Both the position numbers and the translations under genes were made by a program. The notes below the pieces were generated by a model. The model worked only from the letters and a program-made list of their open reading frames with translations. It did no database searches and had not been told where the DNA came from. A stretch of 37,188 nucleotides of DNA from an uncultured Clostridia bacterium (lineage in GTDB: Bacteria > Bacillota > Clostridia > Christensenellales > CALMFG01): positions 1 through 37,188 of the forward strand of contig CALMFG010000171.1 of the NCBI GenBank assembly GCA_937863465.1, given 5' to 3'. Below, piece after piece: positions 26,600 to 27,503 of the stretch (its first letter is position 1; every line of letters starts with the position of its first letter).

Positions 26600-26908
26600 T
26601 TAAAGCTTAATCTCGATATCAACACCGGCCGGCAGATCCAGACGCATGAGCGAATCGGTGGTTTTCGATGTCGCTTCCAAAATGTCGATCAGACGTTTGT
26701 GGGTCTTGATTTCGAACTGTTCTCTCGAGTCCTTATACATGTGCGGGGCTCTTAAGATGGTGACAATCTCTTTTTGTGTCGGCAGGGGGATTGGGCCCGA
26801 AACTTTAGCGCCGGTGCGCTTGGCCGTTTCAACAATCCGCTGAGCCGATTGGTCGATCAGGTTGTGATCATAAGCTTTCAGTTTGATTCTAATCTTCTGT
26901 GTAGCCAT
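26600..26908 (-). CDS. rpsJ: 30S ribosomal protein S10
   Basis: A 102-residue protein of the small-subunit head that also acts as the antitermination factor NusE. It has [76 protein letters not shown], complete. The ATG at 26908 is 11 bases after AGGAGG. The frame stays open 42 codons further upstream, but that is leader RNA, not protein. It is the first gene of the ribosomal operon. The ribosome binding site is partly inside a 5-bp hairpin. Confidence 0.98.
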
Positions 26909-27101
26909 TAAACTTCTTTCCTCCTCGTTATTTTCGAGGCCGCTATACACTTTGCCGTGTGTGCCGAACATTAATTTTCGACACGGCGAACCGCGGCCCG
27001 CCGCTTTGCTCTTAGGCAAAACGTTTGTCTGCAAAAGTTATCCGTAATTGGAAGACCGGTAACCTTCTGCATCATCCCGTGCTGTACATTTTCCGCACAG
27101 C
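26909..27101 (-). promoter_or_regulatory. Structured S10 operon leader RNA, candidate autoregulatory site
   Basis: About 190 bases between the proximal promoter and rpsJ, with a series of hairpins on the minus strand: a 5-bp stem near the start (GCTGT/ACAGC); a long imperfect stem at 27031-27070 of about 13 pairs with one bulged G; TTTGC/GCAAA around 27006-27020; GCCGTGT/ACACGGC (26954-26987), which competes with GTGTCGAA/TTCGGCAC; and CCTCG/CGAGG (26923-26939), which captures part of the ribosome binding site. Similar leaders bind L4 in other bacteria. This one is drawn by eye and was not matched to a known family. Confidence 0.6.
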
Positions 27102-27107
27102 TTTTTA

Positions 27108-27136
27108 ATTATACATGAACACCCACACCAATGCAA
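27108..27136 (-). promoter_or_regulatory. Proximal promoter (P2) of the ribosomal operon
   Basis: TTGCAT (27131-27136), 17 bases, TATAAT (27108-27113) on the minus strand. Transcription would start at about 27101, giving a leader of roughly 190 bases. A 6-bp GGGTTT/AAACCC hairpin (27137-27157) abuts the -35. Confidence 0.85.
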
Positions 27137-27159
27137 GGGTTTTTTTAGAATAAACCCGC

Positions 27160-27188
27160 AAAAAAACGCCGAATTTCAGCGGTTTTTG
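27160..27188 (-). terminator. Possible short hairpin terminator between the two S10 promoters
   Basis: On the minus strand AAAAAC-C-GC pairs with GCG-TTTTT with one bulged base, leaving a run of seven T's. It would lie only about 10 bases into a transcript from the distal promoter. The stem is weak and it may equally be a processing or pausing site. An alternative pairing AACC-GC/GC-G-GGTT is possible. Confidence 0.35.
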
Positions 27189-27203
27189 GTGCGTCCGATA
27201 TGC

Positions 27204-27232
27204 AGTATATCGAAATGCAGCGGCGCTGTCAA
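27204..27232 (-). promoter_or_regulatory. Distal promoter (P1) of the ribosomal operon
   Basis: A near-perfect consensus: TTGACA (27227-27232), 17 bases, TATACT (27204-27209) on the minus strand. Its -10 lies inside an inverted repeat CGATAT/ATATCG (27196-27201 and 27207-27212), which could be an operator. Transcription would start near 27197 and run through the hairpin at 27160-27188 to the second promoter and rpsJ. Confidence 0.8.
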
Positions 27233-27290: not shown

Positions 27291-27304
27291 GCTGTCTTAA
27301 TTGA

Positions 27305-27475
27305 TTAGAAGCCTTTGACGGTATTGCCGACGCCCAACAGCACGAAAGCCGCCAGAGCAGTCCAGCCGCCGTCGAACGGAATAAATCCGAGCAGGCCGAC
27401 CATCTGTAGCAATGCCACAACTCCCAATGCAACAGAAATCCAAAATACGATCTTTTTCGGTGGTGTTAATCTCAT
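27305..27475 (-). CDS. Small two-helix membrane protein of unknown function
   Basis: A 56-residue protein starting MRLTPPKKIVFW, with two hydrophobic segments (about 9-32 and 38-53) and the end GNTVKGF. I recall similar 50-60 residue proteins with an MR(I/L)TPPK start in diverse bacteria, all unnamed and without known function. The ATG at 27475 is chosen because GGAGGT lies 9 bases upstream; an in-frame ATG at 27502 lies before that site. It has its own consensus promoter, a palindromic operator-like site at the transcription start and a terminator, so it is a one-gene transcription unit. Membrane location is predicted from hydrophobicity. No function should be assumed. Confidence 0.8.
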   Translation of the reverse strand: MRLTPPKKIVFWISVALGVVALLQMVGLLGFIPFDGGWTALAAFVLLGVGNTVKGF

Positions 27476-27503
27476 ATGAATGATACCTCCAGAAATTTTC
27501 ATT

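Follow-up and report, generated by a model that had tools for sequence, protein, structure and literature searches.

A likely divergent S10 ribosomal-protein leader with a predicted long-range helix and a WhiA-like element upstream of rpsJ in an uncultured Clostridia bacterium

Among ribosomal-protein operons, S10-spc is the largest, and to our knowledge the way in which Firmicutes balance its expression is not settled. The L4-controlled S10 leader of E. coli is the precedent. For Firmicutes, the sections of Eckert and Weinberg 2020 (PMC7247131) that we consulted describe an S10 ribosomal-protein leader (r-leader) as already established by the pipeline of Yao et al. 2007, with many examples in Clostridia. 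Rfam represents this type as RF03136 (S10-Clostridia), a model of 81 nt with a gathering score of 35.1 bits, in which GAUGAA, a hairpin (H1) with an AGGUURC internal loop, a joint and a second hairpin (H2) precede rpsJ. An rpsJ motif (RLC-47-1) is also reported from Peptostreptococcaceae in the consulted part of PMC11109978.

A second kind of control has been described at the level of DNA. According to the consulted portions of Fisunov et al. 2024 (PMC11701221), WhiA of Mycoplasma gallisepticum senses ATP, binds GAYACRCY before the rpsJ operon and represses the operon, and most species that have whiA carry the motif upstream of rpsJ. In Streptomyces venezuelae, rpsJ is among the WhiA ChIP-seq targets, and Streptomyces WhiA sites occur in both orientations (Bush et al. 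2013, PMC3781837, in part). The consulted part of Bohorquez et al. 2023 (PMC10714963) contained no statement on rpsJ.

Here we describe the leader region of rpsJ in a stretch of 37,188 nucleotides (the window) on a single contig within a 2.17-Mb genome. The rpsJ gene starts at 26908 on the minus strand and is followed by further S10-spc-alpha genes, and all features described are on this strand. Upstream of the leader lies an open reading frame of 57–58 amino acids with a hydrophobic stretch (27303-27476, minus strand; no Pfam match), with a strong terminator (27290-27265, -15.7 kcal/mol) after its end. We refer to the promoters as distal and proximal, to the helices as H0 to H3 and to a conserved element as W. 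The relatives listed are all from the same order as the window. The features are as follows.

26603-26908, minus strand: rpsJ (S10), first gene of the S10-spc operon, by gene reading
26909-27101, minus strand: leader RNA from the proximal start, about 193 nt, by folding from an inferred start position
26920-26926, minus strand: Shine-Dalgarno sequence (SD) GAGGAGG, by sequence reading
26923-26939, minus strand: SD hairpin of the window, arms 26939-26935 and 26927-26923, sharing 26939-26937 with H3, by folding
26937-26999, minus strand: predicted helix H3, arms 26999-26993 (GGGCCGC) and 26943-26937 (GCGGCCU), ending 10 nt before the SD, by own-versus-other-species complementarity and folding
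26946-26965, minus strand: WhiA-like element W, consisting of GGCACACACGG (26965-26955), CAAA and GTGTA (to 26946), by the W matrix and alignment
26999-27078, minus strand: S10-leader core, consisting of GGGAUGAU, H1a, GUUA, H1b, AUAA, H1a', AGAC and H2, by covariance model R1 (54.7 bits, E 7.8e-14)
27002-27023, minus strand: H2, arms 27023-27016 and 27009-27002, by alignment and folding
27031-27070, minus strand: H1, with H1a arms 27070-27064 and 27037-27031 and inner H1b arms 27059-27057 and 27044-27042, by alignment and folding
27108-27136, minus strand: proximal promoter, -35 TTGCAT 27136-27131, 17 nt, -10 TATAAT 27113-27108, by promoter match
27160-27181, minus strand: terminator-like hairpin (27181-27167) followed by a T tract, downstream of the distal start, by hairpin and T-tract reading
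27196-27212, minus strand: 6-bp dyad CGATAT-n5-ATATCG overlapping the distal -10, by inverted-repeat reading
27204-27232, minus strand: distal promoter, -35 TTGACA 27232-27227, 17-nt spacer, -10 TATACT 27209-27204, by an 11/12 match

The leader contains a conserved core that can be recognized from its relatives alone. Among 56 rpsJ upstreams of the order (the window's own included), the H1 anchor was set by hand in 46, the W anchor in 50 and both in 44. Nineteen of the 46 order cores, chosen for compact loops and low redundancy and excluding the window, formed alignment A1, and covariance model R1 was built on these sequences. Relatives share the order GGGAUGAA, H1a, GUUR, H1b, loop, H1b', RUAR, H1a', GGAC and H2. 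R1 matched the window at the position listed above, with no match of comparable score elsewhere in the same genome; the next match there scored 20.3 bits (E 0.018). Outside its training set, the model matched 29 of 37 order loci (the window locus among the 37) and, at E ≤0.1, 66 of 80 rpsJ loci outside the order, across Clostridia and Bacilli. Matches were present in 201 of 297 order genomes.

The helices of the core covary. In A1, 95.7% of 304 cells were paired, nine of 16 pairs changed on both sides, and the covariation score of 0.475, compared with 0.247 in shuffles, was reached by none of 500 shuffles. A second alignment of 28 distinct held-out rows (A2), which was fitted to R1 and so leans towards it, had 96.7% of cells paired and 13 of 16 pairs changing on both sides. 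We also compared the best helix within species with the best helix between species, using permutations. H1a, the positive control, gave z 8.2 across 46 leaders (0 of 2,000 permutations; reversed control 1.5). The initial annotation had proposed a structured leader before the S10 operon, and had named absent covariation in relatives, or a single active promoter with an unconserved leader sequence, as outcomes that would speak against it; covarying pairs are present among the relatives, the leader is conserved, and a model built without the window finds it.

The same annotation could not match the leader to a described class, but such a class exists, namely the Firmicutes S10 r-leader represented by RF03136. 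The window locus lies directly upstream of rpsJ, carries the H1/H2 core and has covarying pairs among its relatives, as this class does. We therefore consider it likely that this is a divergent Firmicutes-type S10 ribosomal-protein leader, with an H1/H2 core, H3 and putative feedback control. In the window, none of the Rfam families attains its gathering score, and RF03136 gives no match there at E up to 5, so the leader is filed as a variant and not as a member by Rfam's cut-off; we attribute the missed membership to the divergence of the window copy. The window also differs in having H3, a possible crossing 5' helix and W, which the Rfam model lacks. Across 61 order genomes, RF03136 passed its cut-off in three, with the window not among the places found. 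It also passed in four of ten related loci tried: L015, L048, L073 and L085 (Bacillus inaquosorum). The last three are outside R1 training, and the R1 matches in them coincide with the RF03136 places. We note that three of 61 order genomes for RF03136 versus 201 of 297 for R1 makes the Rfam model appear too narrow for this order. RLC-47-1 (PMC11109978, in part) is likewise a structured leader before rpsJ in Clostridia, likened here by its description and not by structure.

Beyond the Rfam model, complementarity between leader segments points to a long-range helix, H3, that is common to the order. In many relatives, the segments that immediately follow H2 and W are complementary to each other while being of unrelated sequence, such as GATTCCCG/TGGGAATC (L007), GAACTCAT/ATGAGTTC (L011), CTAACTC/GAGTTAG (L016) and CGAGTCATG/CATGGCTCG (L031). 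Across the 44 order leaders, H3 gave z 6.2 (0 of 2,000 permutations), compared with -0.7 when one arm was reversed. The value was the same in the 36 leaders left without near relatives, and it rose to 8.7 (control 0.9) with windows cut tightly after H2. We note that the windows for H3 and H0 were picked after reading the same sequences. From the 66 R1 matches outside the order, 20 loci were taken by hand and 17 passed a W score of 9; in these, z values of 2.6 and 2.3 against reversed controls of 1.3 and 1.2 mean that H3 is only suggested outside the order.

A further helix, H0, would join the 5' end of the leader with the segment just before W. In the 44 order leaders it gave z 6.2 (reversed control 1.1), and 5.3 after seven near relatives were dropped; outside the order, z was 1.6. 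The best match in the window was merely ATTAA/TTAAT, and by eye TGTGCGGAA/TTCGGCACA forms eight of nine pairs (unscored). H0 is thus perhaps common to the order and unclear for the window. Since H0 and H3 would cross, the two together would form a pseudoknot. Several other pairings showed no comparable signal and were rejected: the 5' end with the SD region (z 0.8); the H1 apical loop with the H3-internal region (0.7), the SD (0.6) or the 5' end (-1.0); and the H2 loop with the SD (-0.3) or the H3-internal region (0.4).

In the window itself, the predicted fold has at least six hairpins at minimum free energy (MFE). The annotation's at least five hairpins in a leader of about 190 bases downstream of the proximal promoter thus agree with the fold and with a length of about 193 nt (27101 to 26909), whereas conservation is demonstrated for only two of the hairpins, H1 and H2. 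Its last hairpin, said to mask part of the rpsJ ribosome binding site, is recovered as CCUCG/CGAGG before the start codon, with a pair probability of 0.93–0.95 and part of the SD covered. On reading, we did not notice this SD hairpin being shared by relatives (no count was made). H3 is absent from the MFE structure of the window, and its pair probability is about 0.014 in a model free of pseudoknots. The MFE was -69.6, compared with -65.4 when H1a, H2 and H3 were forced and -67.1 when only H1a and full H2 were. Three bases (26939-26937) belong to both H3 and the SD hairpin, which would therefore partly exclude each other.

Between the strands of H3 lies W, a conserved WhiA-like element that the initial annotation did not notice, leaving its description of the leader incomplete. 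Its consensus is GRNACRCMCGG, a short spacer and GTGTA. At a matrix score of at least 14, W was found in 53 of 56 order upstreams, compared with 0.19 per 56 upstreams in shuffles; because 47 of these 56 upstreams supplied the training sites of the matrix, this count is partly by construction. The 80 loci outside the order, many from Bacilli and a few from other phyla, are independent of the matrix, and 44 of them reached the same score. The position of W varies. In five leaders (L011, L012, L014, L033 and L123) it lies upstream of the leader promoter, with a weak copy so placed in L013. L013, L014 and L123, which belong to one family (f4), lack a well-scoring copy near the SD. We also observed two tandem copies 37 bp apart in L014 (about -364 and -327 from rpsJ), upstream of the promoter, and in L120 a copy about -213 from rpsJ that overlaps the leader promoter's TTGACA -35, together with a second copy near the SD. 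In three order relatives (L022, L029 and L030), W is near the SD yet there is no R1 core match, which indicates that the two parts can be lost separately.

From motif and position, we lean towards reading W as a putative WhiA site. As in the described WhiA operator of the rpsJ operon (PMC11701221, in part), a GAYACRCY-like core precedes rpsJ, a second conserved half follows downstream and whiA is present (C6:10878-11783, 263.9 bits). Presence of whiA is not discriminating as a test of W, since the gene was found in 60 of 61 genomes; the genome without a match (G019) still has a W-like site (L017). In contrast to that operator, the window site lies within the transcript, at about 137–156 nt, instead of at the promoter, and GGCACACA fits six of eight letters of GAYACRCY (GACAC in Streptomyces), while the Bacilli form GACACACC fits all eight. 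A genome-wide W-like regulon was not supported: the search gave three matches against three in the control with a loose pattern, and the rpsJ site alone against one in the control with a strict pattern.

Alternatively, W could be purely an RNA element, a ribosomal-protein binding site or a piece of the leader fold unrelated to WhiA, which we regard as rather unlikely. The incomplete core match of the window is in keeping with this, as is the constant sense orientation of W: the antisense element at a score of at least 14 was found in none of 56 order upstreams and none of 80 outside loci, whereas sites occur both ways in Streptomyces in the consulted part of PMC3781837. Potential pairing between the W core and a segment further upstream also exceeds that in shuffles (total z 5.4 in 41 order leaders), with GCCGTGT/ACACGGC as the pair in the window, and in Bacilli W (GACACACCCGG) sits in the H1 apical loop, within an insert that RF03136 does not model. 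However, no covariation links the two halves of W (z 0.0 in 50 leaders), and with this result W as a hairpin was rejected. The copies upstream of the promoter or across its -35, and those kept where the core is not matched, also speak against a purely RNA role. Together, the promoter-upstream positions and the lack of covariation between the arms favor the DNA site.

Two promoters precede the leader, with 96 bases between their -10 elements. The distal promoter is the best in the window and its sole match of at least 11/12, compared with 0.35 such matches per 37 kb of the whole window and 0.02 in the intergenic region in dinucleotide shuffles. The proximal promoter has a perfect -10 and a -35 matching 3/6. 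An earlier description of two near-consensus promoters about 95 bases apart thus fits the number, the spacing and the distal site, and is generous for the proximal -35. Of 46 order leaders, 44 have a promoter of at least 8/12 just 5' of the core, which makes the proximal promoter the conserved one. The distal -10 does overlap an inverted repeat, as had been proposed (the dyad at 27212-27196), and a terminator-like hairpin of 6 bp with seven T does follow, although it begins about 15 and not 10 bases past the expected distal start.

The distal promoter and its hairpin could act as an attenuator or produce a short terminated RNA that governs read-through into the operon. The strength of the promoter match and the hairpin with its T tract immediately downstream would suit such a role, but we find it doubtful: only eight of 46 order leaders, the window counted, have a promoter of at least 10/12 further upstream, the same arrangement of promoter and terminator was not noticed in any relative when their upstreams were read, and the hairpin could be no more than an additional terminator for the open reading frame upstream. 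As far as seen, the distal promoter with its hairpin appears to be a feature of a single genome.

An L4-type S10 leader of the gammaproteobacterial kind is highly improbable here. It would share its place before the same operon and its presumed logic with the E. coli leader, but no model in Rfam attains its gathering score there (which does not presume an Rfam model for that leader), Rfam shows no similarity to it in the window, and the conserved core is of the Firmicutes type. L4 may nevertheless bind this leader even if the two RNAs have no common origin. Scarcely credible, finally, is an ordinary GC-rich untranslated sequence with meaningless hairpins: the fold near the proximal start (from 27097) is just z -2.2 from shuffles (2 of 200 as stable; z -4.06 from the distal start), but the covariation refutes this reading, and the model matches are far beyond chance.

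The leader type and W before rpsJ as a WhiA motif are already known. In the search listings and the sections of the papers cited above, we found neither H3 or H0 nor a WhiA-type site nested in an S10 leader, which does not prove their absence from the literature. Our results extend this leader type to an order in which it largely escapes Rfam, and add a testable long-range helix adjoining the SD. They also name WhiA as a possible second input, which, if true, would link ribosome supply to energy state. Tentatively, one stretch of about 190 bases may read two signals, through a pseudoknotted RNA that senses a ribosomal protein (H0/H3 around H1/H2) and a DNA site for the ATP-sensing repressor WhiA nested in H3. 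As a module, the WhiA site would have changed place, being found in the H1 loop in Bacilli, ahead of the SD in the window's order and other Clostridia, or in the promoter region.

The conserved structure of the leader suggests how it could work, and it is probably autoregulatory. RNA polymerase would start mainly at the proximal promoter, and the leader would fold into H1, with two variable helices around the conserved GUUR/RUAR internal loop, H2 and the long-range H3, which would close the domain just upstream of the SD. Feedback is likely: once one of the operon's ribosomal proteins is made in excess of rRNA, it would attach to the H1/H2 core and alter H3 and SD access, lowering translation of the S10 operon. 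In such a putative two-state leader, protein on the core would shift the balance between H3 and the SD hairpin. Judging by its motif and positional behavior, W between the H3 strands would add a second, transcriptional input as a probable WhiA site. Separately, we observed that three other Clostridia loci (L086, L092 and L098) share a segment immediately 5' of the SD in which GTAC-type arms flank AGCATAGCGAAAA and which resembles a different SD-proximal hairpin.
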